Assembly (NCBI GenBank): GCA_001460835.1
Contig: CYKH01001399.1
Location: 1-47,701 of the forward strand
Source: Bodo saltans
Lineage: Eukaryota > Euglenozoa > Kinetoplastea > Eubodonida > Bodonidae
Direction: 5' to 3'
Length of the DNA: 47,701 nt
The position numbers and the translations under genes are program-made. Positions 18,835 to 46,200 of the stretch are shown in pieces; the stretch's first letter is position 1; every line of letters starts with the position of its first letter. The notes under the pieces were generated by a model. It did not search any database. It had not been told where the DNA came from and saw only the letters and a program-made list of their open reading frames with translations.

Positions 18835-19920
18835 ATGGCGGCGCGGAGCGGTGCTTTTGTGGTCAATGTCGCTTGCGACTTTGGTCAAGGGAAGATTAAC
18901 ACCGGCATTGAGTTCCCTCAGCGCCCATCGGAAGTATCGGAGCTTGTTGCCGTGGTGGAGGAGCTGTACACAGCGGAGCTTAGACTACAGACCGGCAATA
19001 CAACTGTGACGTTCCATTGCGCCGTACTGCTCCTTCTGGTGGACGTCGTGAGCGACGGCAACGACCGAAAGGGAAGGTGGGTGGAGGTCGGCCGCATGGA
19101 TCAAGTCTCCCACGGCGCTCAACTGTTTGTGTTTGACTCAAACTCTCCTCCCCCCTCCAAAGGCACAATCCCCAAGGTGCAGCTTGTCGTGACAGCGGCT
19201 CAAGTTCTCCGTTTTCGCAACAATGCAGCTCGTGCAGCATCTACATCACCTCCCCAGGTGGCCTCTCGTGCTCCAACGGACACCGCTTCTCGCTCTATGG
19301 GAAGCATAGATCCGCCCCTTCGTGGTGGTAACGACTCGTACAGAAATGAATCGGCGTCGCACGTCAATCAGTCTCAATCATTCTCATCCTCTGGCGTCAA
19401 CGCGGAGGCTCGGGAGTATCTCTTTCAACAACTTTGCCGTGCGAGTGGATCGTCTGACGCCGTGTCTGCGTCTCGCCTTCACTCAATTTTAGCGGAGAAC
19501 GGCCTAGTACTTTCCACGGAACAGTTTACAGAGGTGACTAATGGGGAGCTCATGTTAGACCGACGACAGTGGACTGCACTGGAGAACAACTTTGTACCTC
19601 TCATTGACGCACTGTATGTAAGACTAGCGGCAAAGGCTGCTCATGGAAATGCAGAAGGCGCACTTCAGTCTCTGAAAGAGAAGCTGCAGCAGTTGCAGGA
19701 CGAGGAACACAGACTCCTTATCCGCCACGCTAACCTACGTGAAGAAATGGCAAAGGCGACGAGAGACGTGAGAGACGAGGAACAGCGAGTCAAGGGTTTA
19801 GAGAGCAATGATAAGCTCAAGGACTGGTCGATGGTTCAGAAGTTTATTTCATTGAAACTGCGCCAGAACCGTCTCCGACGAGAAGAAGATCAAATCAACA
19901 AAGAGCTGAGTTTGCTGTAA
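18835..19920 (+). CDS. BILBO1 N-terminal-domain-like coiled-coil protein
   Basis: Residues about 6-110 of this 361-residue protein resemble the N-terminal domain of BILBO1, the trypanosome flagellar pocket collar protein. The pattern is F-V-V-N-V-A-x-D-F at the start, then INTGIEFPQRPSEVSELV, FHCAVLLLLVDVV, a GRWVEV strand and AQLFVFDSNS followed by Pro/Lys. That domain is known to have a ubiquitin-like fold. A low-complexity linker follows (about 125-195). Next is a helical segment (about 200-265) placed like the BILBO1 EF-hands but without canonical DxDxDG loops, then a coiled coil (about 275-361) ending in RREEDQINKELSLL. It is much shorter than BILBO1 (587 residues in T. brucei). I read it as a paralogue or distant relative and not BILBO1 itself. 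The probable role is a cytoskeletal adaptor. Confidence 0.65.
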   Translation: MAARSGAFVVNVACDFGQGKINTGIEFPQRPSEVSELVAVVEELYTAELRLQTGNTTVTFHCAVLLLLVDVVSDGNDRKGRWVEVGRMDQVSHGAQLFVFDSNSPPPSKGTIPKVQLVVTAAQVLRFRNNAARAASTSPPQVASRAPTDTASRSMGSIDPPLRGGNDSYRNESASHVNQSQSFSSSGVNAEAREYLFQQLCRASGSSDAVSASRLHSILAENGLVLSTEQFTEVTNGELMLDRRQWTALENNFVPLIDALYVRLAAKAAHGNAEGALQSLKEKLQQLQDEEHRLLIRHANLREEMAKATRDVRDEEQRVKGLESNDKLKDWSMVQKFISLKLRQNRLRREEDQINKELSLL

Positions 19921-20034
19921 GTTGTATAGAATAGATCAAACGAGTGTCTGTTCACTGCCCTTGTGTAAGTGTTGTTTGACTGTTGCTTACCACAATACGT
20001 AATCGCTTGTTTCCATCACTACGAAAGTGGCAGG

Positions 20035-21300
20035 ATGCATCTCAAGGTAGTTACCGACAGAGGCGAGACACATAAAGTATCAATTGATGAGAAGACACGC
20101 GTGGGGCAAGTGCTGGAGCAGGTAGCGCACAAGGTGAGCCGTAAGCCGAACTTGCTGGAGGCGTCCCTCACCTACAATGGTGCGCTTCTACCTTTGGACA
20201 TGCGTGCGTGTGCGCTGCCTGCAGGTGCCACCATTGCGTTCCAAATGGCACACCACGAAGCGTCGTTAGCCAACACGACGATGGATACGTCGTTTCGGGC
20301 CGCGATTGCCACAAAAAATACTCTTCTTATTCAACTCCCTAATTCGACAGAATCACGAAGGGTTCATGTGAACAGCGGCGACCCTGTGAGCTGCCTCAGA
20401 GAGGTGCTAGCGATTCCCCAGTCGTTGTTGATACACTACAACAAGCGACCCATTTTAGACGAATCGAGAAGCATAGCGTCCCTGCGCATGACGGATAAAT
20501 ACCTCATTACCTTCGCCGCGTATCAGGACACCAGCTACCTCACCGCCACGTCTCCCTTCGCATCTGCTGCTCCTCGTGGCGTGGTCAAGCCTCCCTCACA
20601 GATGACATCTTATCATCTCTCAGAGCTTAAAAGTCCCAAGAGAGGCGACCGAGAAGAGGTCTCGTTCCAAGGGACTAGCTTCAACAATGCCAGCAAGAAT
20701 AAGCCGCTGCCAACACCCTTAGAGCGGTCCGCCTTTGAAGACTACCCCCAACAGCAGGTGGATCGTAGCATATCGTTCCACCCCCCTGCTCCTGGCATGT
20801 ACTCCCCAGAGAGATCTAGAGTCCCTTCTCGTCTAGGGAGAACTACGGATCGATCCGGTGCCCCACCAGTTGTCCGTGGAGATCTGTTCGGCAGTGCCAT
20901 ACGCAACACCAGGGAGGAGGAGTTTTCGGACCTGAGGCCAGTCCAAGCACAATCTGTGAGCGCCTCCCCCGCTCCATCGTGGAATCGATCTCCCCCTAGA
21001 CAGCAGGTTGTGATCACATCCACTTCTACTTCTAGTGCCGTCCATACAAAGTCTATTCGTATTTACGTGTCGGACCCTGAGGACGGTGGCTTCACGCACG
21101 ATCTCGAAGTGAACCCTGAAAGGAAGGTGGCGTCGCTACATCAGTTCGTAGAGCACCCCGAGGCGTACTCGCTCTACTGCGATACTCAACTTGTATCTGA
21201 TCCTGAACACACGACGTTTTGGGATGCGACAGGAGGGAAGCATGGCTCCCTGTTTACCTTCGAGCAGCGACGAGACTCTCGCATGTCTCGCTACCACTAA
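20035..21300 (+). CDS. Triple ubiquitin-like-domain protein
   Basis: This 421-residue protein has no named orthologue that I recognise. Residues about 1-72 are ubiquitin-like (MHLKVVTDRGETHKVSIDEK, then a LTYNGALLPLD turn like the ubiquitin IFAGKQLED). A second such domain lies at about 95-160 (TLLIQLPNSTESRRVHVNSG, LLIHYNKRPILDESRSI). A third is at about 337-415 (KSIRIYVSDP, YSLYCDTQLVSDPEHT). Between the second and third is a Ser/Pro/Arg-rich, probably disordered region with SPKR, SPER and SPPR motifs. No C-terminal di-glycine is exposed, so it should be a UBL scaffold and not a conjugated modifier. The next two genes carry the same kind of domain. The start is set by an AG at 20032-20033. 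Confidence 0.65.
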   Translation: MHLKVVTDRGETHKVSIDEKTRVGQVLEQVAHKVSRKPNLLEASLTYNGALLPLDMRACALPAGATIAFQMAHHEASLANTTMDTSFRAAIATKNTLLIQLPNSTESRRVHVNSGDPVSCLREVLAIPQSLLIHYNKRPILDESRSIASLRMTDKYLITFAAYQDTSYLTATSPFASAAPRGVVKPPSQMTSYHLSELKSPKRGDREEVSFQGTSFNNASKNKPLPTPLERSAFEDYPQQQVDRSISFHPPAPGMYSPERSRVPSRLGRTTDRSGAPPVVRGDLFGSAIRNTREEEFSDLRPVQAQSVSASPAPSWNRSPPRQQVVITSTSTSSAVHTKSIRIYVSDPEDGGFTHDLEVNPERKVASLHQFVEHPEAYSLYCDTQLVSDPEHTTFWDATGGKHGSLFTFEQRRDSRMSRYH

Positions 21301-21460
21301 TGAAATAGATGCTGTGAGATTACATTTGTACACATTACCAAACTGCAACGAGGTTCAACATACAACAACAACTTGAGAATGTAACGTGAATGATCCATAT
21401 TCTGCTGATCCATTTTCTGAAGCAAAGGTACCTTAGTATTTACATCTGAGCACACAGTCA

Positions 21461-21486
21461 CCTGCATTGCCTGACCGTTTCTTTAG
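21461..21486 (+). promoter_or_regulatory. Spliced-leader acceptor for the giant C2/UBL gene
   Basis: A C/T-rich tract ending CTGACCGTTTCTTT is followed by AG at 21485-21486, two bases before the ATG at 21489. Confidence 0.65.
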
Positions 21487-21488
21487 AT

Positions 21489-24400
21489 ATGAACGGCACG
21501 CTGCAGATTACCGTTGTGAAGGCCAATGGCCTCTTAGACCGCGATACATTCGGCCATAGTGATCCCTACACTATCGTGTTGGACCCTCAGGGAAAGGAGC
21601 TGCTCAAGACGAACACTATTGACGACAACTGTGATCCTGTTTGGCCAGCAGCGAAAGCGACAACAACATGGACGGTGGTAATGACCAGCGGTTCATTCCG
21701 CTTCCAAGTTTTCGATGAAGACGTGGGGGAGGATGAGATTTTAGGTGAAGGCACCTTGGCCGTGACGGAAATGATAGCGATGCCAAGAGGCGAGAGGACG
21801 TTGACGCTAGCGGCGCGAGCAAATGAGACGGACAAGACGGTCGCTAAGGCCAAACCTGGCAGCCTGGGAAGTATCACGATCTCGTGGATTTACACTGCCC
21901 CTGCTGGTCCCCCAGCACCTGTTCCCCAACCTGTTAACGCAGCGTACCCTCAAGCCCAAGCCCCTCCTGTTGCTAAAGCAGTCAACGCAGCCAACCCCCA
22001 GGCCGCCCCTGTACCTCAGCCAGTTCCAGGCTATCCTCAACCTGCGCCAGCTGCTGCCTACGCCCCCGTGCCGCAAGCTGGTTATGGTACTCAAGTGCCT
22101 CAGCCAGTTTCGCAAGCTGGTTATGGTGCTCCGGGACCTCAAGCCGCGAAAGGTTATCCAGCTCCTGCACCGGTGCCAGGGTACGGTCAGCCACCGTACG
22201 GTCAGCCACCAGGTGCCTATCCACAGGCGCCACCGGCACCAGCAGCGCCGCAGCGCGGGTCAATTCGCATCGTGGTGAAGAGGGGCGAGTCCTTGGCCAA
22301 CGTGGATGAGGGCATGTTTGGTGGTGGCGCCAGTGATCCCTTCTGTCAGGTGTTCGACCCTGCAGGCCGTGAGATCCTCAAGACGCCCCACGTCAACAAC
22401 ACTTTGAACCCTGCTTGGCCGGAAGACCGCTCTAGTGCTGTGTGGAAATTTACGTCGACCCCCAGTGGACTGTTCAAGTTCTTAGTGTGGGACGACGAAA
22501 CGGCAGGAGGCGACCAGTTCATGGGCGAGGGTCTCCTTGACGCTGCTGAGTTCCTGCGCAAACCGCAAGGCGACATCGTCATCAAGCTGAAGAATCGAGT
22601 TGGAGAAACAGACAAGAAGATCTTGAAAGCCAACGGTAACCTCGGCAACATTCACATTAGCTACGCACTGACTGTGGAACCTCCTACTCCTGCGAACCCG
22701 GTAGCCAACAATCCTGCGGCGCAGGCGGCCCTTAATGCTTCCATGGCGAGCGGCCAGATTCCCGCAGGAACGAAGCTGCGCGTTTTCGTGCGCAAAGGCA
22801 CCAAGCTGCTTAACCGAGATGGGATTGGTGCTGGTGACAGTGATCCGTACGTCATTGGAAAAGACCCCTCCGGAAAGGAAGTCATGCGCACGAAGCCGGT
22901 CATGGACAACCTCAACCCTGACTTCCCTGTAGAGCAAGCTACGATTGAGTGGCCAGTCCCACCCAACCAGCCAACCAATGGGTTCTTCCACTTCTCCGTG
23001 TGGGACTATGATCCTGTGGGAGGTGATGATTTCTTGGGAGAGGTGTTTATGAACGTACAAGACATGATCCGCACCAAAAAGGGAGAAAATGCTGTCCCTC
23101 TGAAGCCTCGACAAAATGAGCCGGACAAGGAGATCCAAGACAACGCTGCGAACCTGGGCACCCTCACCGTCCAGTGGGACCTTGTGACGGACCTTGGCGG
23201 CTCTTTGGCGAAGTCCATGAGCCTTGCCACTGGCGCCACAGCACAAACGCCCATCGCGTTCCCAGGCAATTTAAGTATTACGATTGTACGGGGAGCGAAA
23301 CTGTTTAACCGCGAAACATTTGGCACCAGTGACCCGTATGTCATTGCCTTTGGTTTAGACGCAAAGGAGGTGCACCGCACCCCGGAAGTTGAGGGGAACC
23401 TCAATCCTACATTCCCCACGTCCAAGTCTCAGTATATGATACGCGTAGAGTCACCGCAAGGAATGCTCAAGTTTCATGTCATGGACAAGGAGACCATCAG
23501 CGACAATTTCATGGGCGAAGGAGTCATCGATGTCAACGCTATCATTGCCCAACGAGGCGGCGCTGAGATTGAGGTTCCACTTCAGCCGCGACCCAATGAA
23601 CCTGAAAAGGATATTCGAAATGCCAAAGGCCTCGGATCTATTTTTATCAAAGCAGAATTTGAGAAGGCAGGCGTGTTAAAGCGTGAGGCGGATGATGGAT
23701 CGCGTGGCTTGGCAATGCCAAACGCACCGAAGAAGATCCCTCAGCGCGGTTTGCCCGGGAGCGTGACGGTGCTAGTAAAAGGTGCCATCAAGCTGAAGAA
23801 CAAAGAAACCTTCGGAACCAGCGATCCGTATTGCATCGTCAAAGGACCGGCAGGAGATCAGCTGCTCAAGACAACTACGATCGACGCGTGTTTGAACCCT
23901 GAGTGGCCCGCTGATAAGTCCAAGTTTGTGTTACGCCTCACGGAGGCATTCTTCCAGGGCAAGCTGACCTTCTCCGTATTCGACGAAGAGACGGTGAAAG
24001 ACCGAATCATGGGCGAGGGGTCCTTGCCGGTTGCACAAATTCTTACGCAGGAGAACGGAGACGTAGCCATTCCATTAGGAGCTGCCGGCTCTGGCGATGA
24101 GGGCTACGTCATTGTGAACGTGCAATATGCCCAAGACACCGCTGCTGCAGTACAACGAGTTAACGTTCAGCTTCCAGGCACGGTGGTCCTTACCATCGCC
24201 AAGGCCAACGGCCTCATGAACCAAGAGTCCTTCGGCACCAGCGACCCGTACGCAAAGGTGTTAGGACCGGACGCGAAAGAAGCACTCAAGACGCCCACAT
24301 CGAAGTCGACACTGAATCCCACGTGGCCCCCGGACAAATCAAAAGCCCTCATCCGTGTTGCGGACCGCAACGGCTCATTTAAGATCCAAGTTTGGGACGA

Positions 24401-27400
24401 AAATGTGTCGAGCGATGAGTTCATGGGCGAGGCCACCATTGAGGCGGCTGATCTCCTCAGCCGCCCGCATGGCGAGATCACCCTCTCCCTCCGTCCTCGG
24501 CCAACGGACGGCAAGGCACTGCAGCAAGCGTCGTCCTTAGGCACCGTAACCTTCAATTATTCATACCTTCCTGGAGGCGCCACCGATGCACAAGGGCGCA
24601 AACTGAACCTTCCCAAGATTACGGGCCAAGGTAGAATGATGCTTAAGGTCCTTAGCTGTGCCAACCTTATACCAATGGACTTCGCAACGAGCGACCCGTT
24701 CATTGCGCTTGTTGTCGATGGCCGAAGGGTCTACAAGAGTAAGATAATTGACAGCACCGTCAACCCAGTCTGGTCAGGCAGCGACGGCACAGGGGACATC
24801 TACGTACGCGATGCTTCTAAGCCCATCTTTATTGAAGTGTATGATCATGACGCGACAAGCGGCGACGATTTCGAGGGAAAGGTTCAGATCCTTCCCATGC
24901 AGCTTGACGAGAGTGGTGACAGCACCATGCAACTGCTAGACGAAAATATGCGCGCTGATAAGAATCGCGGCACGATCACCTTCCAGTGGGCCTTCACCAA
25001 AGAAACTCTTCGAAAGAATCCTCAGGCACCAGTCATCACCAAGCCCGGGCGTGTCACCGTGACGGTTGAATCGTGCGCTTCGCTCATATCTCGTTCCACT
25101 TTCAGTGACACCCCGCACGTGGCGGGTTTCTACAGCGGCTCGGAAGTCTTCCGAACGCCAAAAGGATCTGGGTTGAACCCCTCTTGGACGGCTGCCGACG
25201 CTACCTTTACGCAGTACATCACCAACCCGAATGCACCTATCGAGCTGTATGCCCAGGAGGGCGAAAAGTTCCTCGGAATGTGTGCTCTTCTCCCAGCAGA
25301 CATGAACCAACAGGGTAACGGCACATTAACGCTACTTCCCAGGCTGCAAGAGAGCGACACAACCATTTTAGAAAAGCAAGGCAACCTCGGCACGATTTCC
25401 TTCAAGTGGGTCTACGAAGAGGCAAAGGAAATCAAGGACGCTATCAACAAGCCTGGAACCATTCGCCTTCGTGTCATTGGTGCGTCCGGCCTTATCTCTC
25501 AAGATACGTTTGGTGAAATGGAAGTGTACGCCGAGGTCCATCTGCGCAACAAGATCATTCACCGAACCAAGGAAGTTGACTACAGCATGAAGAAGGGCTC
25601 TTGTGAGTGGAACGCTGGCGACGGAACCCACGAAGTTCAAATTGACGATCCCTCGACAGAAGTTCTTATTTTGCTGTGGGACAAAGATGCCACTTCGTCC
25701 GATTTCTTAGGCCGCGCAGTGTTCCGTCCCACCGAGAACGCTAAATCTGGTGAAATTGAAATGGTGCTGCGTCCTCGCCCCAACGAACAGGACAGCAAGG
25801 TGGCGAAAGCCCAAAGCCTTGGGCATCTGCGTGTGTCGTGGCTTTTCACTGAATCTCAGGAGCGCATCGACGTTTCGACGAAGCAGCCTGGAGTCGTCGC
25901 TCCTGTACCACCAGCAGCCTCGACAGGCCCACAAGGTGGCCCACAGTACCTTTACCAGAATCGTGCCGCCACTGACAACATGCCACCTCCCCCTCCCCCA
26001 GGTGGTGTGCGTGTGCGTATTCGTTTGTCCCAAGTGCGTGGCGTGCGCTTTGTGAACACCCGCCAAGACCCAGAAGTGTTAGTGTCGCTATTGTACAACG
26101 CTCAAGAGCTCCGCACCAACCCAGCTGTCTCCGATGGAAGGGACGCCACCGTTTTCCCGCTCAACGGCACCTTCACCATCACGCCCAAAGCAGACGACAA
26201 GATTGCTTTCCGCGTGTTCGATGCTGATGACCTTTGGGGCCGACCCCTAGGCATCGCGTACGTCAAGTGGGAGGAGTCCCTTGCAGCAAATGCACGAAGT
26301 TCTCACGCGCAACAAAGCGTGTTCGCATCTCCACTCGTGGATGAGCGCGGTGAGCCACGCGGTGAGGTTCTGTACATGATCTCCGCTGAGGACAAATCAT
26401 CGTCTGCAGGTGAACTTGAATATGAAGTGCGACAAGCCCAGGACATCAGCGGGATTCCTAGCGGCGCCCATGTTATGGTCCGCACCGCGATTGGCGGTGT
26501 AGAGCAGTACTCGAAACCTATTGCTGCGCTCTCCCGCACTATCTTCTTGGGCGCCAAGTTCAAGACCAGCTCCTTCACTGAATCCGATGTGATTACAGTA
26601 GAGCTGATGGATGCCCAAAGTGGTGCTGTGTACGCAGGAGGAACGCTGAGCATTGGACCTGAGCGGAAGGACGGCAATATGTGGATGCAGCTCATACAGC
26701 CTGCAAACAAGCAGAATGCTGGAACTGTCTTTGTAGACTGGCGCTTTGCCCCCGTCACTCGACGTCCACTGAGCGAGTATGTTACGTGTCCTGATGGTTC
26801 CCTTCTAGGCATCGTGGAAGTTCTGCAGGTGAAGGGTTTCGATGCCAACGACATCCATCACAGCGTTGCTGTGCAAGTTGAGCAGAATCAACAACCGATT
26901 GCAAGAAGCGACACGACGCCAGTGGTCACCAACTCTGTGAACATTGGCCATGTGTTCTATGCCCCTGTTGACGTGGCCCAGCAGGCCCCAGCAAGCCCTC
27001 AGCGTAGCTACAATCAGTCAGGGTACCAACAAAGCAACCTCTCCACCCACCAACCCAGCACCAACGCCAGCACCATCCTCCGGCTCGTCGAGACTCACTC
27101 CGGCCATTCGATCGGTGAGGCTGCCATCCCCCTTGGAAATCCCACCGAGGTAGAGTCGTGGGTTGCGCTCAGCGGTGGAAAGCATGCATTGGTCCGCACC
27201 ATGGTAATGCGTGGTCAGCCGGTAGGTGGGCAAGAAGAAAAGAACCTCGTCGTACGAGTCAAGAGGGTCGAGCCTAGTCAACACTTCAACACTCAGCGTG
27301 ACGTGGTGCTCAGCATGCAGGTAAACCCCGACTCCGGATCGTATGGGGGCGCGCCAAGCCTACAACGAACGGCTGCATTCAAACCACAAGGGGTTCAGAT

Positions 27401-29507
27401 CATTGACTCCAATTATTTCTTCCCAGCCCACTTGTTCCCACGCACCCAAAAGCGTTTCCCGCTTGAAGTGTGCTTGCTGGAGGCAGGAGATGCCACCATG
27501 GGTCACGGCCTCGGAGCGTGCTCAGCGAACATATCTCGCCTTCGACGAGGAGGTGACCTGACCTTAGACATGCATGACGGAACACGCGTCCTGCTGTCAT
27601 ACTTGTGGGTCGACCTCGCAGGCACCCAGATTGGCGACGTGCCCAACGTAAAGACGTTAACACTTGTGGAGGCCAATCTGCGCAACAACGTCACAACTCG
27701 CTACGAGTCGCTGATTGTGCAGCTTAGCACTGGAACGGGAGGTGCCGTCGTTCGCAGCACCCCAAGCGGCCACCCCACGCCTCAGAATCCAAGGTTCGGA
27801 GACCAGCCATTCAACATCGTCGAAGGCGCCATGACAATGCCCATCCGCGTGACCCTCATCGGAGTTCAACAAGGAAAAGAGGAGTCCATTGGCGTTGCTG
27901 ATGTGACGTCGGAGTCCTTTGCTGAGGGCCGCCAGCTGCTGGCCGTACGACGCCGTGCAGATGAGGTGGCGGCCATTTTATTTGAGACCACTGTGACACT
28001 TTCAGCCTCTGATAAGAACGGATCCTCGGTGGGTATTCGTAGGAAGGGTGCTGCGAAAGGCGATGAAAGTTATCCCATCAAAGTTCAATTCGTCGCTGGT
28101 CGCGCGTTTGGCACGCGCATGGAGCCCCATGAGACTCTGGATGCGCTGAGGCCGTACCTCTCCAGGCACTTCGCGGTGCTGGAGGAGGAGCAGCAGCTGA
28201 CGTGGAACAACAAGCCGCTAGAGTGGGACCGCACTGTCGCACAGAATAAAATTCGTCTTGGAGACGATGGCGTCGCAAACTTCGCACTTTCCAGCACAAA
28301 CAAGCGCAACTTGTACCTAAACGTGAAGACCCCAAGCGGAAAGGCGGTGGTCATCGGCGCTAATCCGCACACCTCTGTGAAGCAAGTGAAGACGCAGCTC
28401 ACCGAGCGTGACGACACGGAACTCGATATCGAGCCAGTGGATGGTATTTCACTCGTTTGCAACCGCACTGAGCTGGCCGATGATGAGTCCCTAGGATTTT
28501 ATCGCCTCCAGTCTGGTAACACACTCTTTGCTACGCTCAAGCCTAGGTCGAACAAGGCATCTAAGCTACGCTCACTACCACCGTCAGCAACCAGCGGACG
28601 CGTGACGCTCCGAGTTGAGGGACCATACGGCGATGAGAACATTGTGCAACTCAGCCTTGATGAACCTGTCGCACAACTGCGCGGCATTCTGTCGGAGGAG
28701 GACAACGTGAGGTCAGATATTTTTATCGATGGGCAACGGATCCTAAACGAAGAGGAGCGCCTTGGCAGCTTAGGCGTCACTCGAGGGACCATTGTGAAGT
28801 TTGTCCTGAATAAATTCCGCATTGGATCGCCTGAGAAGTCACGAGCAGGTCCCACTGGTAGCAAGATCGGCTCGTTTGATGTAGAGGGGGTCGATGGGAT
28901 GGTGGCTCGGCACGAGTTTAACTTTGACGAGCCCATCTCTGGAATCCGCCGCGTTGTTTCCAATGACCCAGCTGCCCAAATATTCTACAACGGCCGCATG
29001 ATCACCAATGAGAACCGAACCTTCAGGGATATTGAGGCGTCTCCCCACGGGGGCCACTTCCAGCTCCGCTACCCCCAGTCGCATGGAGGTGAGCGACGCC
29101 ACGGTACTGACCACGACCTCCTCATCCAGCGGCAACGAGCCACAGAAAGCCTCCAGTTTGCTGTTGTGGACTTGCAGCGGCAACTGGAGGCCTCGAAGGC
29201 GTCACAAAACGCAGAAAAGCAGCTTAGTCTGCGCTTGATGGATAGCGAGAGAGAGCTGGACGAGATGCACTTGCGCTACGAGAACGCACTCAGCCGCATT
29301 CGTGAGCTTGAGGACACAATCGATCGCCAACAGTCTCTTATGCAAAGAATGACGTCCACAAGTACCACCACCTCTAACCCATACTTTCAGCCGCATGTGT
29401 CGCTGCGTAACTCCTCCGGCAGCGCACTCCCCCTCCGCCCCATCGGAGGGTCTCTTCATTTAGACTCAAGCGGCCTTGGCAGTACATTCTACAACAGCCG
29501 ACATTAA
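21489..29507 (+). CDS. Giant multi-C2, multi-ubiquitin-like-domain coiled-coil protein
   Basis: This 2672-residue protein contains about nine clear C2 domains at residues about 1-135, 257-395, 426-568, 593-724, 757-881, 897-1028, 1048-1175, 1187-1311 and 1323-1455. Several more divergent C2-like units follow between about 1505 and 2174. Each clear unit has a FGTSDPY-like loop 1, an LNPxWP strand and a WDxD..xDxFxGE-like loop 3, and most end with a tail like RPNEPDKxIxxAxxLGxIxxxW. A Pro/Ala/Gln/Tyr-rich linker separates C2-1 from C2-2. Four ubiquitin-like domains follow (about 2195-2271, 2273-2353, 2370-2443, 2461-2531), then a short coiled coil (about 2538-2621). C2 domains bind acidic lipids, often with calcium. 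The likely role is a long membrane-cytoskeleton scaffold. Loop aspartates fade toward the C-terminal units. The acceptor AG is at 21485-21486. Confidence 0.85.
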   Translation: MNGTLQITVVKANGLLDRDTFGHSDPYTIVLDPQGKELLKTNTIDDNCDPVWPAAKATTTWTVVMTSGSFRFQVFDEDVGEDEILGEGTLAVTEMIAMPRGERTLTLAARANETDKTVAKAKPGSLGSITISWIYTAPAGPPAPVPQPVNAAYPQAQAPPVAKAVNAANPQAAPVPQPVPGYPQPAPAAAYAPVPQAGYGTQVPQPVSQAGYGAPGPQAAKGYPAPAPVPGYGQPPYGQPPGAYPQAPPAPAAPQRGSIRIVVKRGESLANVDEGMFGGGASDPFCQVFDPAGREILKTPHVNNTLNPAWPEDRSSAVWKFTSTPSGLFKFLVWDDETAGGDQFMGEGLLDAAEFLRKPQGDIVIKLKNRVGETDKKILKANGNLGNIHISYALTVEPPTPANPVANNPAAQAALNASMASGQIPAGTKLRVFVRKGTKLLNRDGIGAGDSDPYVIGKDPSGKEVMRTKPVMDNLNPDFPVEQATIEWPVPPNQPTNGFFHFSVWDYDPVGGDDFLGEVFMNVQDMIRTKKGENAVPLKPRQNEPDKEIQDNAANLGTLTVQWDLVTDLGGSLAKSMSLATGATAQTPIAFPGNLSITIVRGAKLFNRETFGTSDPYVIAFGLDAKEVHRTPEVEGNLNPTFPTSKSQYMIRVESPQGMLKFHVMDKETISDNFMGEGVIDVNAIIAQRGGAEIEVPLQPRPNEPEKDIRNAKGLGSIFIKAEFEKAGVLKREADDGSRGLAMPNAPKKIPQRGLPGSVTVLVKGAIKLKNKETFGTSDPYCIVKGPAGDQLLKTTTIDACLNPEWPADKSKFVLRLTEAFFQGKLTFSVFDEETVKDRIMGEGSLPVAQILTQENGDVAIPLGAAGSGDEGYVIVNVQYAQDTAAAVQRVNVQLPGTVVLTIAKANGLMNQESFGTSDPYAKVLGPDAKEALKTPTSKSTLNPTWPPDKSKALIRVADRNGSFKIQVWDENVSSDEFMGEATIEAADLLSRPHGEITLSLRPRPTDGKALQQASSLGTVTFNYSYLPGGATDAQGRKLNLPKITGQGRMMLKVLSCANLIPMDFATSDPFIALVVDGRRVYKSKIIDSTVNPVWSGSDGTGDIYVRDASKPIFIEVYDHDATSGDDFEGKVQILPMQLDESGDSTMQLLDENMRADKNRGTITFQWAFTKETLRKNPQAPVITKPGRVTVTVESCASLISRSTFSDTPHVAGFYSGSEVFRTPKGSGLNPSWTAADATFTQYITNPNAPIELYAQEGEKFLGMCALLPADMNQQGNGTLTLLPRLQESDTTILEKQGNLGTISFKWVYEEAKEIKDAINKPGTIRLRVIGASGLISQDTFGEMEVYAEVHLRNKIIHRTKEVDYSMKKGSCEWNAGDGTHEVQIDDPSTEVLILLWDKDATSSDFLGRAVFRPTENAKSGEIEMVLRPRPNEQDSKVAKAQSLGHLRVSWLFTESQERIDVSTKQPGVVAPVPPAASTGPQGGPQYLYQNRAATDNMPPPPPPGGVRVRIRLSQVRGVRFVNTRQDPEVLVSLLYNAQELRTNPAVSDGRDATVFPLNGTFTITPKADDKIAFRVFDADDLWGRPLGIAYVKWEESLAANARSSHAQQSVFASPLVDERGEPRGEVLYMISAEDKSSSAGELEYEVRQAQDISGIPSGAHVMVRTAIGGVEQYSKPIAALSRTIFLGAKFKTSSFTESDVITVELMDAQSGAVYAGGTLSIGPERKDGNMWMQLIQPANKQNAGTVFVDWRFAPVTRRPLSEYVTCPDGSLLGIVEVLQVKGFDANDIHHSVAVQVEQNQQPIARSDTTPVVTNSVNIGHVFYAPVDVAQQAPASPQRSYNQSGYQQSNLSTHQPSTNASTILRLVETHSGHSIGEAAIPLGNPTEVESWVALSGGKHALVRTMVMRGQPVGGQEEKNLVVRVKRVEPSQHFNTQRDVVLSMQVNPDSGSYGGAPSLQRTAAFKPQGVQIIDSNYFFPAHLFPRTQKRFPLEVCLLEAGDATMGHGLGACSANISRLRRGGDLTLDMHDGTRVLLSYLWVDLAGTQIGDVPNVKTLTLVEANLRNNVTTRYESLIVQLSTGTGGAVVRSTPSGHPTPQNPRFGDQPFNIVEGAMTMPIRVTLIGVQQGKEESIGVADVTSESFAEGRQLLAVRRRADEVAAILFETTVTLSASDKNGSSVGIRRKGAAKGDESYPIKVQFVAGRAFGTRMEPHETLDALRPYLSRHFAVLEEEQQLTWNNKPLEWDRTVAQNKIRLGDDGVANFALSSTNKRNLYLNVKTPSGKAVVIGANPHTSVKQVKTQLTERDDTELDIEPVDGISLVCNRTELADDESLGFYRLQSGNTLFATLKPRSNKASKLRSLPPSATSGRVTLRVEGPYGDENIVQLSLDEPVAQLRGILSEEDNVRSDIFIDGQRILNEEERLGSLGVTRGTIVKFVLNKFRIGSPEKSRAGPTGSKIGSFDVEGVDGMVARHEFNFDEPISGIRRVVSNDPAAQIFYNGRMITNENRTFRDIEASPHGGHFQLRYPQSHGGERRHGTDHDLLIQRQRATESLQFAVVDLQRQLEASKASQNAEKQLSLRLMDSERELDEMHLRYENALSRIRELEDTIDRQQSLMQRMTSTSTTTSNPYFQPHVSLRNSSGSALPLRPIGGSLHLDSSGLGSTFYNSRH
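21895..22257 (+). repeat. Low-complexity Pro/Ala/Gln/Tyr-rich linker inside the giant C2 gene
   Basis: About 120 codons between the first and second C2 domains encode repeated short motifs such as PQAGYG, PVPQPV, PGYGQPPYG and PQAPPAP. The DNA shows matching short imperfect repeats. It resembles annexin or synexin type proline/tyrosine-rich tails and is probably disordered. It lies in frame and does not break the gene. Confidence 0.8.
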
Positions 29508-29670
29508 CTCCCCCTCTTACTGTTGTACACCCACCACCCACATGCATACTTCGTTTGTTAGAGCGGTGAGGCAGTAGAAACCTTCCCCGCAGTTAGATAG
29601 AGCGCTGTTTCACTTTCATCCAAAGTTCTTACGTTGTGTAATGTCTATTGTTTTCGATGTTCTCGATGGA

Positions 29671-29714
29671 CTCTTGTTAACTCTTTTGTCTCTGGTCACA
29701 CTAACTAACGCAAG
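29671..29714 (+). promoter_or_regulatory. Spliced-leader acceptor that decides the start of the smaller C2/UBL gene
   Basis: A long pyrimidine-rich tract (CTCTTGTTAACTCTTTTGTC core) ends in AG at 29713-29714, with another AG at 29735-29736 directly before ATG 29737. The in-frame ATG at 29641 lies upstream of the tract and would be lost on trans-splicing. Confidence 0.6.
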
Positions 29715-29736
29715 ACACCTATTCACACATCGCCAG

Positions 29737-32238
29737 ATGTTTGAGCGCCACGTGAGGGTTGTGGTCAAGGGTTGTCAGGGGTTACTGAACACAGACTCAG
29801 AACATCTCAGTGAACTGACGGACCCAGTTGTGGCTGTGTTCAAGGACAACGTGCCCAATCCGGTGCTAATCACCCCATTGATCATTAACAGCTGCTATCC
29901 CACTTGGGAGGAGTCGTCGGCCTACGCAGATGTGTTCATCAGTGACGGCACGCTGCTCATCTTCCAAGTGTGGCATCAAAACGTGGATGAGAAGAAGGGT
30001 GTATTCTTAGGCGAGCTGCGACTCACCGGCGACCGGCTCACAGAGTTGGAGGGTAAAATTATTGACGTGCTGTCATCGCGGCCCAAAGAACCCAACGCGA
30101 AGGTGAAGGCGGCAAGTGAGAGTGAAACGAGATCCCTTGGCTCCATACAAATAGAGTACAAACCCGTCCCGGGGGAGGAACCCGTGGATCCCCTCGATGC
30201 CACAGGATCATTGATCCTCCTTGGTGGCCTCAGCGTTATCGAAGGTCGCAATCTTCTCAAGCGAGACAACGGCCCCGAGATGCTGAGTGATCCGTATCTT
30301 ACTGTTAGTTTTCGCACCAAGAGGCGTATTGTGCATCGCACAGAAACAATTCCTTGCACTCTCAACCCGAAATGGGCACCTAATCCGCAGACTGCGACAG
30401 TCGTCCAGCTGAGTGCCCCTGCCACCGAGCCCAACCCTGTGCTGTTTGTGGAGGCCTGGAATGCAAACCCGAAGCCTGAGAGAGACAGCTGCTTGGGTGT
30501 TTGCCACATTAAAATTGAAGATCTTGACGAGGGCGTGCAGCGGTTAGAGCTGCACCCCCGAGCCAATGAAGAGGACGGCGTGTTAAAGCGCATGGACGGC
30601 CAGCTTGGGTGGATTGTCGTGGAATGGAAGCCAGTCGGCCCTCTAGCGGAAAAGTGTCGGCTGAGGAGTGAGTCCAAACGTCTGGGGCTGATGAGCGGCT
30701 CTGATGGAATTGCGAAGATTGCACAGTGGTCCCCGACAGAACTCAATGAGTACCTCAAGCGGCTGCGGGCAGGTGCCCCGCCTGAGGCCACCAAGCCGGT
30801 GGGCACCGGTGCTGGCGGGACAACCACAACATCGGCGCTTCAGGGCGGTCTGCAGACAAACTCCTCCCCAATGCCGTTTGATGCACTGACTCCCTTCTCT
30901 CCTTACTATCCCCACGAAGACTCAAACACAAGGACGTCTCTGATTGCAACTGCAAGCGCACCCCAACACCACGCACTGATGGCACCTGCCTCAACGAACA
31001 GAGCTGATTATGAGGTTGGCGACCCGCGACTAGCAACGGTCGAGATGTCGGATGTCGTGCCTATTCGTGTGGCGTACGGAACTAGTTTCTACGATACTCA
31101 ACTTCGTCTTGATGATCCATTGTCTACCCTCCAAGCAGAACTTGAGGACGTGTTCCTAGTGCATAAAGACGTGCAATTGATCTTTCATATCGGTGAGCTT
31201 AAAGATGTTCGTGTTTCTCTCCGCCGTAACGGCTGTCTACTGCTGAAGGGAGATCCGCACATAAAGCTCACGATGAAGGTGGCCAAGGGTCCGCAGAGGA
31301 ACCTCATTTTTGTATTCCCCGACAAGCGTGAAGTAGCGCTGGCTGTGGGTGAATCAGAACTTGTTCGTGCAGTCAAGAATCAACTTTGCGATGAGTTTCA
31401 ACAAGAGCGAGGCCTTGAGGAACTCCTTGAAGACCCAAAGGAGATACGACTGCTTTGGCGCTACAATGAACTCAACGACCGAGCATCGCTGCAGTATTAC
31501 AACATTCCAACCAACGCGAAGGTGAACGTCGCAAGAAAGCCCAAGTTTTCCTTCGATCAAGGAAAACGAGAGGAGGAGGCGGCAGAAGCTCATTTCCGTG
31601 ATGAAGAGCGTCGTGCAACTTCTTATAGATCGTCGAAGGAAGTCAAACATACGGAGCATCATGGGGGAGGCGGCGGTGGCTACACAAGTGCCACCAGTGG
31701 CGGTGCATCTAAAACAACCACAAAGGAATACTCCTACGGCCCCTCCACACACACCGAAAGGAAAACGACGACTGTCTCTACTTCAGGCGGTGGTGTTGGG
31801 GGGAGCAGCGCACGTTCGAAGAGTGCCGATGTCAACAAACGTCGTCCTTCGCCAACCCGCAAGCCAACGGACTCACAAAACAAATCATCCACATCGAAGC
31901 CCCCTCGTTCAAGCGGTGCTGCTGAGTCAAACTCTGCGAACCAACGACCACGTGGATACTACGAGCTCGACCGGGATGGGACTGCCATCGACGACCAGGA
32001 GCTGGGCTTTCTGAGACGCACTGTGAATCAATTGGAGCAACAAGTCCGGCAGCAGACGTCGACCCAAGGAACAATTCAACAAGAGATGCAGGAGCGGCGC
32101 ATCGCTAAGCTTGAACACGATTTGACCGAGTCAGAGAACCGCTACCGTGATTCTCTTCTGCGCATAGCGGAGCTTGAGTCGAGTGTTGGACGATACCAGC
32201 AGCTCCTTCAACGTGCTACCCAGATGGGATTGCAATGA
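29737..32238 (+). CDS. C2/ubiquitin-like-domain coiled-coil protein, smaller relative of the giant
   Basis: In this 833-residue protein, two C2 domains at about 1-150 and 156-298 keep the layout of the giant neighbour. They include the LSDPYLTV loop and the tail RANEEDGVLKRMDGQLGWIV. The calcium-loop aspartates are mostly missing (for example WNANPKPERDSCLG), so lipid binding may be calcium independent. Two ubiquitin-like domains follow (about 438-518 and 521-603), the second with RNLIFVFPDKREVALAVGES and a LLWRYNELNDRASL turn. A Ser/Thr/Gly-rich linker (about 620-740) leads to a C-terminal coiled coil (about 754-833) whose ENRYRDSLLRIAELESSVGR parallels ENALSRIRELEDTI of the giant. The two genes are probably an old tandem duplication. 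Met at 29737 aligns with the start of the giant. The 32 codons upstream are read as leader. Confidence 0.8.
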   Translation: MFERHVRVVVKGCQGLLNTDSEHLSELTDPVVAVFKDNVPNPVLITPLIINSCYPTWEESSAYADVFISDGTLLIFQVWHQNVDEKKGVFLGELRLTGDRLTELEGKIIDVLSSRPKEPNAKVKAASESETRSLGSIQIEYKPVPGEEPVDPLDATGSLILLGGLSVIEGRNLLKRDNGPEMLSDPYLTVSFRTKRRIVHRTETIPCTLNPKWAPNPQTATVVQLSAPATEPNPVLFVEAWNANPKPERDSCLGVCHIKIEDLDEGVQRLELHPRANEEDGVLKRMDGQLGWIVVEWKPVGPLAEKCRLRSESKRLGLMSGSDGIAKIAQWSPTELNEYLKRLRAGAPPEATKPVGTGAGGTTTTSALQGGLQTNSSPMPFDALTPFSPYYPHEDSNTRTSLIATASAPQHHALMAPASTNRADYEVGDPRLATVEMSDVVPIRVAYGTSFYDTQLRLDDPLSTLQAELEDVFLVHKDVQLIFHIGELKDVRVSLRRNGCLLLKGDPHIKLTMKVAKGPQRNLIFVFPDKREVALAVGESELVRAVKNQLCDEFQQERGLEELLEDPKEIRLLWRYNELNDRASLQYYNIPTNAKVNVARKPKFSFDQGKREEEAAEAHFRDEERRATSYRSSKEVKHTEHHGGGGGGYTSATSGGASKTTTKEYSYGPSTHTERKTTTVSTSGGGVGGSSARSKSADVNKRRPSPTRKPTDSQNKSSTSKPPRSSGAAESNSANQRPRGYYELDRDGTAIDDQELGFLRRTVNQLEQQVRQQTSTQGTIQQEMQERRIAKLEHDLTESENRYRDSLLRIAELESSVGRYQQLLQRATQMGLQ

Positions 32239-36400: not shown

Positions 36401-36426
36401 TTATATCTTTTTTGCATCGAGTGCAG
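36401..36426 (+). promoter_or_regulatory. Spliced-leader acceptor for the gap-interrupted gene
   Basis: A T-rich tract (TTATATCTTTTTTG) is followed by CAG with AG at 36425-36426, nine bases before the ATG at 36436. Confidence 0.6.
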
Positions 36427-36435
36427 GGTATTATT

Positions 36436-37836
36436 ATGAACGGTTTTGTGCTGGTGGATATGCTCAGTGGGCAATGCATCTTCAGCATGATGTTTGAAGA
36501 GGGCTTCGGCCTCGGCAGCCTCCAACAGGGCGGTGGCGGAGCCGTGGAGGAAGCGACGGTGGCTGCCCATTTCGCGGGCATGTCCTTCTCGCTTATGCTC
36601 CAGGCNNNNNNNNNNNNNNNNNNNNNNNNNNNNNNNNNNNNNNNNNNNNNNNNNNNNNNNNNNNNNNNNNNNNNNNNNNNNNNNNNNNNNNNNNNNNNNN
36701 NNNNNNNNNNNNNNNNNNNNNNNNNNNNNNNNNNNNNNNNNNNNNNNNNNNNNNNNNNNNNNNNNNNNNNNNNNNNNNNNNNNNNNNNNNNNNNNNNNNN
36801 NNNNNNNNNNNNNNNNNNNNNNNNNNNNNNNNNNNNNNNNNNNNNNNNNNNNNNNNNNNNNNNNNNNNNNNNNNNNNNNNNNNNNNNNNNNNNNNNNNNN
36901 NNNNNGGAGGAAGCGACGGTGGCTGCCCATTTCGCGGGCATGTCCTTCTCGCTTATGCTCCAGGCAATCAACTTGGTTGGCACAACAGACACAGTGCCAA
37001 CAACGTCCGCCTCTCGCAGTGCTTACTTCAAAGAGCTGCTTGATCGGCCTGCCCTACTGGACGAGGCGTACAATGCAGCCCCCATGCAGCTCGTGGAAGC
37101 GATGGAAGGCACGTCGTTGTGCTACTATCTCCACCCAAACCTTCCTGTGCTCAGTGCGGTGAGCACGACGTCACAAACAACACGTCTAGGCACATCGGTT
37201 GCAGAGGCCACTGTGAAGCTCTTCGTAAAGAGTCACGCCGAGGCGTACTTCACCTCAGGTCAACAAGGAGCAAAGAAGCTGCGGAAAGCATTGTCTGCCC
37301 CCATTAAGCTCATGTACCAAGAGCTCCTCAAGCAGGAGCTGGAGACACGATGCCAGCAGCAACTGCAGATGAGCGATGATACTTCTGAGGTGGGGGAGTG
37401 GAGGGTTACTCTCGACACATCCCATCAGAGCTTCGGTGCACAAGGCGACACACATGTCGCAACGTTGTGTGGCCTCCGCACAGCTGCGCATCAGTGGGAG
37501 GGTGGCTGGGGCGAACCATCGGTCCAAGGCTGTCGCATTGCTGTGCAGTCTGATCTCCTCATGAACACCGTAGGGCACTTGTTATTGGATCCCGTAAGCC
37601 AAGTCGTATCTGCGTTGACTCGTGACCCCCGCGGCCATTGCTCCGTGGTACTGTGCAGCCAGAGTTTTGCAATGATGCTGACCATCGCTCCTCACAACCA
37701 CCAAAGCAGTATCTCACCAGATACTGCCGCACTCCACTGCTCTTGGGCAGAGAGTGAGTTCTCCTTATGGGCTACCATCTTCCAGTTCGCCAGCACTCAT
37801 CGACTCAACCTCTCTTCACCTCAAGTTGCCTCATAG
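36436..37836 (+). CDS. Unknown protein interrupted by an assembly gap
   Basis: I do not recognise this protein. The frame is the same on both sides of the 300-N run, and the 60 bases left of the gap are repeated exactly on its right. If the gap is artificial and the copies are one sequence, the protein is about 346 residues. The N-terminus (MNGFVLVDMLSGQCIFSMMF) has the look of the first beta-hairpin of a longin or roadblock-like fold. This is weak. The middle has a helical segment (SAPIKLMYQELLKQELETRC). The C-terminal part has strands around HCSVVLCSQSFAMMLTIAPH. There is no signal peptide and no catalytic motif. Traffic complex subunits with longin domains would be worth testing. The start follows the acceptor AG at 36425-36426. 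Confidence 0.6.
   Translation: MNGFVLVDMLSGQCIFSMMFEEGFGLGSLQQGGGGAVEEATVAAHFAGMSFSLMLQXXXXXXXXXXXXXXXXXXXXXXXXXXXXXXXXXXXXXXXXXXXXXXXXXXXXXXXXXXXXXXXXXXXXXXXXXXXXXXXXXXXXXXXXXXXXXXXXXXXXXEEATVAAHFAGMSFSLMLQAINLVGTTDTVPTTSASRSAYFKELLDRPALLDEAYNAAPMQLVEAMEGTSLCYYLHPNLPVLSAVSTTSQTTRLGTSVAEATVKLFVKSHAEAYFTSGQQGAKKLRKALSAPIKLMYQELLKQELETRCQQQLQMSDDTSEVGEWRVTLDTSHQSFGAQGDTHVATLCGLRTAAHQWEGGWGEPSVQGCRIAVQSDLLMNTVGHLLLDPVSQVVSALTRDPRGHCSVVLCSQSFAMMLTIAPHNHQSSISPDTAALHCSWAESEFSLWATIFQFASTHRLNLSSPQVAS
36546..36965. repeat. 300-N assembly gap with identical 60-base flanks
   Basis: Bases 36606-36905 are exactly 300 N. The 60 bases 36546-36605 and 36906-36965 are identical (GGAGGAAGCGACGG to GCTCCAGGC). 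The offset of 360 is a multiple of three, so the frame is kept. This is what unmerged overlapping contig ends look like when a fixed-size gap is placed between them. Confidence 0.9.
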
Positions 37837-43200: not shown

Positions 43201-46200
43201 ACGCTGGTTTCCGGAGATGGACCTTACCCACCCGCAACTGGCGTCTCGCGGTAGCTCCTTCGCACACACGCAAAGTATTGGGTCAGGTGAGCTGAGCACG
43301 GCGTCCCCAACACATTCAACGGCTAGCTCGTACAACGTACCGTTGGCGTTCGTGCAGCAGGCGAGCGGCCCTTTTGGTGCGTTTGGAGTTCCCCCAAGTG
43401 AAGACAGTGACGAGGTGGCCAACCCAGACGATGATCCCTCAGCAGAGTACGCCATCCTCTCCCAAGGCTTCGGTATCGTCCTGCTGTCCAACACGGGCGA
43501 CTCAAATGTCGTCAACTTTGATCCGCTGGCCCTCACCGACAACACACTGCGGGTTGATACCGAAGGCTTTGACCGCATCGTGGTCATGGCTTGTATCGGC
43601 CGTTGCTACGGCTCCAACGAAGACGCTGCACTCGAAGATTTTGAACTGATGTGGCCACGCATGTCCATTGCGTTATCCCTCGTGGTCGACTGGTCCCTCC
43701 TGCCGTTTGCTGTGCGTGACGATTCATTGGAGTTGCTTCTCACACCAGTGCAGTGCACCCCTGATTTGAACTGGACCTCGTGGGAGGACGAGAGTGAGGA
43801 GAGAGTCGCGGAGTATCAAGAGGTCGGCAAGCACTTGAAGCGATTGATTGAGGCGCGGGAGGAGAACACAGCTCAGTTCCAAGGCCTGCATGCTGAGGTG
43901 CAGTGGATTGAAGGCAACTTCCCTGCAGAGGATCCACTAGAACTGTCTCCGCAAAGCACACGAAAGAGCCGCCGTCGCTCCTCCCAAGCCGTCACAAGGA
44001 GCACCAACGATAAGTCAACGGTGCGGCCTCACAGCAACCGTATCGCATGCAGCGGTCGCCCAGTGGTGGTGAAGGACTTGAAGGCCGACACCATCTACAC
44101 TGTGCGAATCAGACCGGTGATGGGAGGTGGTGCTGCTGGAAAAGAGTCATTCGGTGCGTGGAGCCCAGAGATCAAACTTCGCACCGCGTCGCCCCTCACT
44201 CTTGACGTTGAGGGGATTGACGACAGCAGCGTGTCGATTAAATGGCATCGTAGCTCTCCACACCCTGACCAGATTATCAATCAACTCCTGTCATACAGCA
44301 TGCCTCAACCTACCCTGCACCCAAACTTCGTGACTACCGTCTCTGAGTTTGTGTGCTTCCTGTACCGCCACATAATTTATGGCTCCGTGGTGGTGTGGAG
44401 GAAGGAGATTGGTCCTGAGGGTCCTGATGTTGGCGGTAACGGTCACCCCGATGACACTGTGCCTGGATCCCAGCACCACCAAATAAAGGACCTCCCTCAG
44501 GGGGTGCTTTATTTTGTGCGTGTTCAGCAGCGCTCTGCGATAGGAATGGTGGGTGACGCTGCAAGCATTTATGGCTCCGTGGTGGTGTGGAGGAAGGAGA
44601 TTGGTCCTGAGGGTCCTGATGTTGGCGGTAACGGTCACCCCGATGACACTGTGCCTGGATCTCAGCATCACCAGATAAAGGACCTCCCTCAGGGAGTACT
44701 TTATTTTGTGCGTGTTCAGCAGCGCTCTGCGATAGGAATGGTGGGTGACGCTGCAAGCGGTCCGGTTCGACACGATGGAGAGGTCGGCGGCGAGGGATCA
44801 GGCGTGCAAGTGCCCACATCTGACGTTGAGTTGCGTGTGGAGCCGCCGGAGAACTCTGATTCTGATGATGGTAACAGTGCCAGCCACAATCTTGCCATCG
44901 ATCCTCTCAACTACAGCGACGACCACAGTGCAGATGCCCCTCCTCCCTCGACCACCGATGGTTCGTGGTCTTCGACAACGGCGTGCGTGCGTACGGTGGG
45001 CGAGCTCAAGGCGCACATCACGCCACTGGGCAGCGATCGTTTTCAAATTATCGTCGCACGCCCTGGCTTCGAGGATGATAAGTACAACGGTACTACCGAT
45101 GAGCGTGATCGTATTGTTGTGGTGCACCGCCCCAAGGTCCAGCCACTGATTTTTGTCCAAGCTCGCGTCTTAAGTGGATTCCACCCCTCCCGCACTCGGG
45201 GTCACGTTGACGCAACGGATGACTCCGACTTGGTCCCGTCGTACCCAACCCTTGTCACGGATGGTGTGCCGTACTGGGCGAGCGTCGATGCGAACGCCGC
45301 ATCCCTCTATTGGACAGATCGCAGCGGGCTGACCGACCACAAGATGCCTTTCTACGACAACACGTCAGACATCGACATGAGCGCTATGCGTGAGGTGAAG
45401 CAGAACACAGGAGCTCGCGGTGGTGTGCTACCAGCGTACCACATCGTGAACCTAATTCCTAACACGACGATGACGTATGTCATGTGTGGCCTTCCTCGTG
45501 GTAAGTGCCATCAGATGCAAGTACGAAGTCGATGCTACCCATCCGTGGAGCGTGTCCCTTCGGCTGGGGTTGACCTCCGTGCGACGGCAGGGACTGTGCT
45601 GTCCCCGTGGAGCCAACCTGCGCTGCTTGTGACGTTCCAAGCCCCAAAGCTTCGCATCGGGCTCACCTCCGAGTCCACTGCAGCGGTTCACTGGTTGCCC
45701 CCAGAGAAGCCCGACTACTGCCCTCCCGGCACGGAGCAGCTGACTAGAGTCGAAATCGAAATTATTGGCTTCACAAGCGGTGTGGACGAAATCTATGCTC
45801 CTGGGACTGTGGGCGTTAATGACGCTGAAGATACGCCGCATCGGCCCCGTGCTCGTAAGTTTGTACGCTTGTGCAGCACATCACAGGCACCGTCAAGGGC
45901 GCCAACCCCACTCATTCAAGATGACGCGGACGATCGTAGCGAAACGGTGGTGGTAGATAAGCTACTACCCGGCGGCATCGGCGTGGCAGTGGCCACAGGC
46001 TTCTTTGGTGATCTGCGAGGCCCAACGTGCCCCATGTACGTCTTCCACACAGTGTGTCCGGTGGTGGTAAAGTTGACAGGCCTCAGTGCATTTTACAGCT
46101 CAGTGCTGGCCTATCGGCGTACACCTCTCTTGAAGGAGTGCATCGGTGGGCTAGAGCATTTTGTGCGGTACTTTACGAAGCGTATTGACCTCCTTACAGA

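Follow-up and report, generated by a model that had tools for sequence, protein, structure and literature searches.

What kind of system is encoded by four adjacent genes in the middle of contig CYKH01001399.1 of Bodo saltans? The whole contig, 47,701 nucleotides long, was analysed and is referred to here as the window. A preliminary description of this DNA placed four genes side by side at 18835, 20035, 21489 and 29737 and saw in each of them a ubiquitin fold combined with a coiled coil. All four open reading frames (ORFs) are present on the same (+) strand, with ends at 19920, 21300, 29507 and 32238, and each of the four ATGs is in frame with its ORF; we refer to the ORFs with these ATGs as genes 1, 2, 3 and 4, respectively. 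The architecture of the locus suggests large membrane-to-skeleton linkers of unusual design. Scaffolds that combine C2 domains with coiled coils are already known; what makes this locus unusual is its arrays of ubiquitin-like domains (UBLs). The features discussed below are as follows:

18835..19920, + strand: gene 1, 361 residues; BILBO1-type N-terminal domain (residues 7-102), linker, coiled coil (residues ~276-328)
20035..21300, + strand: gene 2, 421 residues from this ATG; three UBLs (2A, 2B, 2C)
to 20256, + strand: UBL 2A of gene 2, aligned from 20026, three codons ahead of the ATG
20305-20532 and 21034-21282, + strand: UBLs 2B and 2C of gene 2, scored with leave-one-out profiles
21489..29507, + strand: gene 3, 2672 residues; nine C2 domains, an undefined region (residues 1504-2190), four UBLs, C-terminal coiled coil
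21492..25847, + strand: C2 domains of gene 3, residues 2-135, 255-393, 428-565, 592-724 and 756-872
within 21492..25847, + strand: C2 domains of gene 3, continued, residues 896-1026, 1047-1169, 1185-1309 and 1321-1453
28059..29084, + strand: UBLs of gene 3, namely 3A (28059-28298), 3B (28299-28556), 3C (28587-28826) and 3D (28857-29084)
29217..29360, + strand: C-terminal coiled coil of gene 3, residues 2577-2624, from the heptad scan
29737..32238, + strand: gene 4, 833 residues from this ATG (ORF from 29641); two C2 domains, one weak UBL, coiled coil
residues 463-550 of the 29641 ORF, + strand: UBL candidate 4A of gene 4, unsupported
31285-31560, + strand: UBL 4B of gene 4, weak
residues 790-862 of the 29641 ORF, + strand: coiled coil of gene 4, from the heptad scan

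The C2 domains are the clearest component. Pfam detects C2 in gene 3 with an E value of 8.4e-122 (399.1 bits) and in gene 4, as the 29641/29737 protein, with an E value of 1.7e-19 (70.4 bits), the gathering cut-off being 22 bits. A search with a family C2 profile (hmmsearch) identified nine C2 domains in gene 3, scoring 70.6 to 157.9 bits, and two in gene 4; this profile was built from the clear C2 domains and thus contained the domains that it found, except for the one at residues 1185-1309 of gene 3, which reached 70.6 bits although it lay outside the profile. Gene 4 alone, compared with PDB, gave three C2 matches with E values of 0.039 to 0.079. Further divergent C2 domains had been suggested for gene 3, but between residues 1504 and 2190 the best C2 match is partial and scores 3.8 bits (maximum of 200 shuffles, 0.8), falling to 1.5 bits in the whole protein, and we do not claim any. 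Thus, of the earlier account of gene 3, the nine C2 domains and four UBLs stand, whereas the additional C2 domains are not established.

In the alignment, most C2 domains of genes 3 and 4 carry a long tail, LxPRxNExDxxI...LGTI, before the last strand; the fifth and seventh C2 domains of gene 3 have a shorter version of it. This long tail is a signature usable for searches. As judged by eye from the alignment, C2 domains 1, 3 and 7 of gene 3 retain the aspartates of loops 1 and 3; domains 2, 4-6 and 9 have Glu or Asn in place of some of them, and domain 8 has lost most. Both C2 domains of gene 4 have lost the loop-3 aspartates.

As for the UBLs, Pfam ubiquitin passes its cut-off only once, at residues 2277-2353 of gene 3 (31.1 bits vs 25.4, E 2.1e-7), and a second match, at 4B in gene 4, stays under the cut-off with 16.8 bits. 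A profile of the eight aligned UBLs of the window (the A1 profile) retrieves ubiquitins from PDB with E values of ~1e-7 to 4e-6; when only 3C, 3D, 2B and 2C were used, the best E value was 0.42, and all five matches were ubiquitin-like. Gene 2 alone had one match in PDB, with an E value of 1.1. We then scored each UBL with leave-one-out profiles against 300 shuffles and 108 control segments. Five of the eight core UBLs (3A, 3B, 3C, 2A and 2B) scored above all shuffles and all controls, and 3D and 2C scored above all shuffles, with one control segment higher than each. The three UBLs previously assigned to gene 2 are therefore supported. UBL 4B did not clear the controls, being equalled in 5 shuffles and 3 control segments, although its alignment with 3B reaches z 8.3. 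Candidate 4A reached 0.5 bits and was equalled by 22 shuffles and 11 control segments. As a result, of the two UBLs described earlier for gene 4 beside its two C2 domains, one is weak and the other unsupported.

Rejection of the UBL folds by structure prediction had been named in advance as an outcome that would speak against the proposal. Modelled with the eight-UBL alignment, 3C takes a ubiquitin fold with a predicted local distance difference test (pLDDT) score of 87.3, at 9-25% identity to the PDB matches listed. A single-sequence AlphaFold2 prediction of residues 2190-2535 of gene 3 reached a pLDDT of 36.4 and was not used as fold evidence. None of the C-termini of the four proteins ends in Gly-Gly, in agreement with the earlier statement that they lack a conjugatable end.

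Coiled coils were called by our own simple heptad scan rather than a published predictor. The tails of genes 3 and 4 are alike (residues 2555-2622 with 791-860, blastp E 6.4e-6, z 8.4), and so are their C2 regions (blastp E 6.8e-18). Plain blastp links gene 2 to gene 3 only at E 0.009; UBL pairs across these two genes align at z 9.6 (3D-2B), 6.5 (3C-2B) and 5.8 (3D-2C). Taken together, these sequence comparisons support the view that genes 2, 3 and 4 are related by domain duplication, as had been proposed for the last three genes. The C2 tree does not settle in what order the duplications occurred, because none of its 16 inner branches is well supported. The heptad scan found no coiled coil in the gene 2 protein, and the UBL of gene 1 is of the BILBO1 type and unmatched by the others; thus, the description of all four genes as ubiquitin fold plus coiled coil was too wide.

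How does gene 1 fit in? Its residues 7-102 match the BILBO1 structures 6sjq_A (E 1e-6) and 2mek_A (E 1.2e-6) in a phmmer search of PDB, which agrees with the BILBO1-like domain recognized from the letters alone. On the one hand, gene 1 shares with BILBO1 a ubiquitin-fold N-terminal domain and a C-terminal coiled coil. On the other hand, it has 361 residues vs 587 in BILBO1. T. brucei BILBO1 is described as having two EF-hands, a leucine zipper and a coiled coil spanning 263-566 (PMC4810094); the Pfam matches of gene 1 at E values up to 1 include no EF-hand, although a degenerate pair may be present. The same source reports BILBO1 orthologues for every sequenced kinetoplastid genome, including Bodo (PMC4810094); thus, gene 1 is likely an orthologue or a relative of this known protein. 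We detected no link between gene 1 and genes 2-4: the best blastp E value was 0.42, and UBL comparisons and profiles likewise gave no match. These comparisons do not place it in the duplicated group, and as a neighbor of genes 2-4 it may or may not take part in their assembly.

Is the combination of domains confined to this locus? We searched the genome (29.3 Mb, 934 contigs) with the C2 family profile, which gave 47 matches on 20 contigs, and inspected loci from nine of these contigs. Matches that extended as far as profile positions 135-137, at its tail end, occurred on three of the nine: C511 (the window), C236 and C166. This count is biased, because the profile was made from the same three contigs, although the tail can be seen in the sequences themselves. 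C236 has a 1635-residue frame, the first part of which appears coiled-coil-like by eye, with seven C2 domains. C166 has one long-tailed C2 domain and a region with coiled-coil matches under the cut-off; in the C2 tree, its C2 domain groups with the fourth of gene 3, with a support of 83/92 (not starred). The A1 profile found no UBL in the stretches of C236 and C166 examined; UBL or PB1 domains suspected by eye at both termini of the C166 protein were supported neither by Pfam nor by the UBL profile. Genome searches with genes 3 and 4 gave matches elsewhere that were confined to C2 regions. Among the loci examined, C2, UBL and coiled coil occur together only in genes 3 and 4. A Pfam ubiquitin search of the genome gave 11 matches, none of them in the window; since it missed a window UBL that passes the cut-off, its result is not evidence for the rarity of such UBLs. 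As a separate observation, in C236 (4465-9372) the seven long-tailed C2 domains follow the coiled-coil-like region, the reverse of the order in the window genes.

Given their domain types, we infer that the products of genes 3 and 4 bind membranes, oligomerize and bind partners. Both may be multivalent scaffolds that link a membrane to the cytoskeleton or to a protein coat, with gene 2 as an adaptor, a reading to which we give about an even chance. The C2 array would bind the membrane, which in gene 3 would depend partly on Ca2+ and in gene 4 probably not; the non-conjugatable UBLs would act as protein-docking modules; and the coiled coil common to both genes would mediate homo- or heterodimerization, giving a dimer of gene 3 a total of 18 C2 domains and 8 UBLs. 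Gene 2 could serve as a free UBL adaptor from the same set of modules. As for the site in the cell, the flagellar pocket, the attachment zone or the basal body is only a guess. Kinetoplastid precedents for a scaffold would be CC2D, a coiled-coil C2 protein whose depletion is reported to inhibit assembly of the flagellum attachment zone (FAZ) (PMC4827413), and cAMP-BP1, described as having five C2 domains and sitting at the flagella connector and the new FAZ tip (PMC11555346). According to a Leishmania FAZ survey, three of 96 T. brucei FAZ proteins have a C2 domain: CC2D, FAZ22 and FAZ35 (PMC10953051).

Several considerations weigh against a membrane-linking scaffold. The coiled coils are short by the heptad scan (48 residues in gene 3 and 73 in gene 4), and genes 3 and 4 were examined in this genome alone. 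Many C2 domains bind no membrane. With 4B weak and 4A unsupported, gene 4 may hold less UBL sequence than described. Three of the five C2 domains of cAMP-BP1 are reported to be dispensable (PMC11555346), so the number of C2 domains need not mean membrane avidity.

Alternatively, the proteins could be scaffolds of the basal body or flagellar base, like C2CD3 or RPGRIP1L of other eukaryotes, with C2 domains that mainly bind proteins within a ring and only secondarily membranes. We consider this unlikely, although multi-C2 ciliary proteins are an established kind and the window also encodes an armadillo-repeat protein and a TSNAXIP1_N-like protein; neighbors say little in such arrays, and several of the C2 domains retain, by eye, the acidic loop residues expected for Ca2+ or lipid binding. 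C2CD3 itself is termed a luminal ring protein and organizer of the distal centriole (PMC12707624).

The C2 arrays would also suit membrane-contact or vesicle-tethering proteins similar to extended synaptotagmins or ferlins, with the UBLs and coiled coil used for docking, and an extended synaptotagmin with two C2 domains has been described in T. brucei (PMC8093936). However, no SMP domain is found among the Pfam matches listed, and the hydrophobic N-terminus of gene 4 exists only with the start at 29641, not 29737, which leaves tethering quite improbable. Least probable to us, and very unlikely, is that these are adaptors of the ubiquitin pathway, whose UBLs bring the proteasome, p97 or ligases to membranes. 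The sequences are indeed ubiquitin-like, one of them over the Pfam cut-off, but they are arrayed by four, without a C-terminal Gly-Gly, and the low identity of the modelled UBL to its PDB matches also argues against this role; moreover, no UBA, UIM, ligase or other catalytic domain appears among the Pfam matches listed.

Returning to the membrane-linking scaffold, how new would it be? The C2CD3/RPGRIP1L-type ciliary scaffolds have multiple C2 domains, or C2 and a coiled coil; to our knowledge, they are without a UBL array. In phospholipase C epsilon and PI3K, C2 also occurs in the same chain as a ubiquitin-fold (RA/RBD) domain, but these are enzymes and, as far as we know, have neither a C2 array nor such a coiled-coil tail. 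CC2D (Tb927.4.2080), a FAZ filament protein, resembles genes 3 and 4 in joining C2 and coiled coil in a kinetoplastid; by its description only, it differs in being tabulated at 105 kDa with a C2 domain and no UBL (PMC4827413). Neither a UBL nor a coiled coil is named for cAMP-BP1 (Tb927.10.5240) in the text consulted (PMC11555346). In line with the preliminary description, no C2-UBL-coiled-coil family is described among the matches listed in the open-licence literature (titles and abstract openings), which is not proof of absence. More tentatively, and less likely than not, a lineage-specific long-tailed C2 domain, arrays of non-conjugatable UBLs and a common dimerizing coiled coil, with tandem expansion here and a UBL-only partner, could define a kinetoplastid or euglenozoan scaffold family that forms one membrane-cytoskeleton system. 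Multi-C2 proteins act at ciliary bases in other eukaryotes. In trypanosomes, C2 coiled-coil and multi-C2 proteins are reported to serve flagellar attachment (PMC4827413, PMC11555346). A version with UBL arrays would supply new candidate linkers and would exemplify ubiquitin folds as repeated docking modules instead of tags.

The long ORFs of the window form a tightly packed array on the + strand, and a tRNA search of the window found none. The neighboring genes are varied and encode coatomer beta, an RNase PH-domain protein, a TRAF-zinc/beta-helix protein, WD40 proteins, DnaJ, GAF, NAGPA, the armadillo-repeat protein (which we take to be SPAG6/PF16), fibrillarin, CHORD and the TSNAXIP1_N-like protein, whose Pfam match is slightly under the cut-off. 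Together with the BILBO1-type domain, this set suggests a kinetoplastid. Adjacency in such arrays is weak evidence for joint function and, with coatomer beta and fibrillarin among the neighbors, need not imply a common one here. We do not rely on a possible synteny with chromosome 1 of T. brucei (coatomer beta, PF16), for which identifier searches of papers gave a single, uninformative mention.

Some other features of the window are of separate interest. At 4605-6344, a TRAF-type zinc finger with a RING-like match (under the cut-off) is fused to a right-handed beta-helix. Tandem repeats of 51 bases (2.9 copies) and 270 bases (2 copies) lie at 6-640, before and touching the start of the coatomer beta gene. 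An N run breaks an ORF at 36412-37836, and the same peptide (EEATVAAHFAGMSFSLMLQ) stands on both of its flanks; thus, the gap probably coincides with an assembly fault or a short duplication. Finally, a 192-base unit occurs in two copies (97%) at 44375-44758, within a long ORF that runs past the end of the window.

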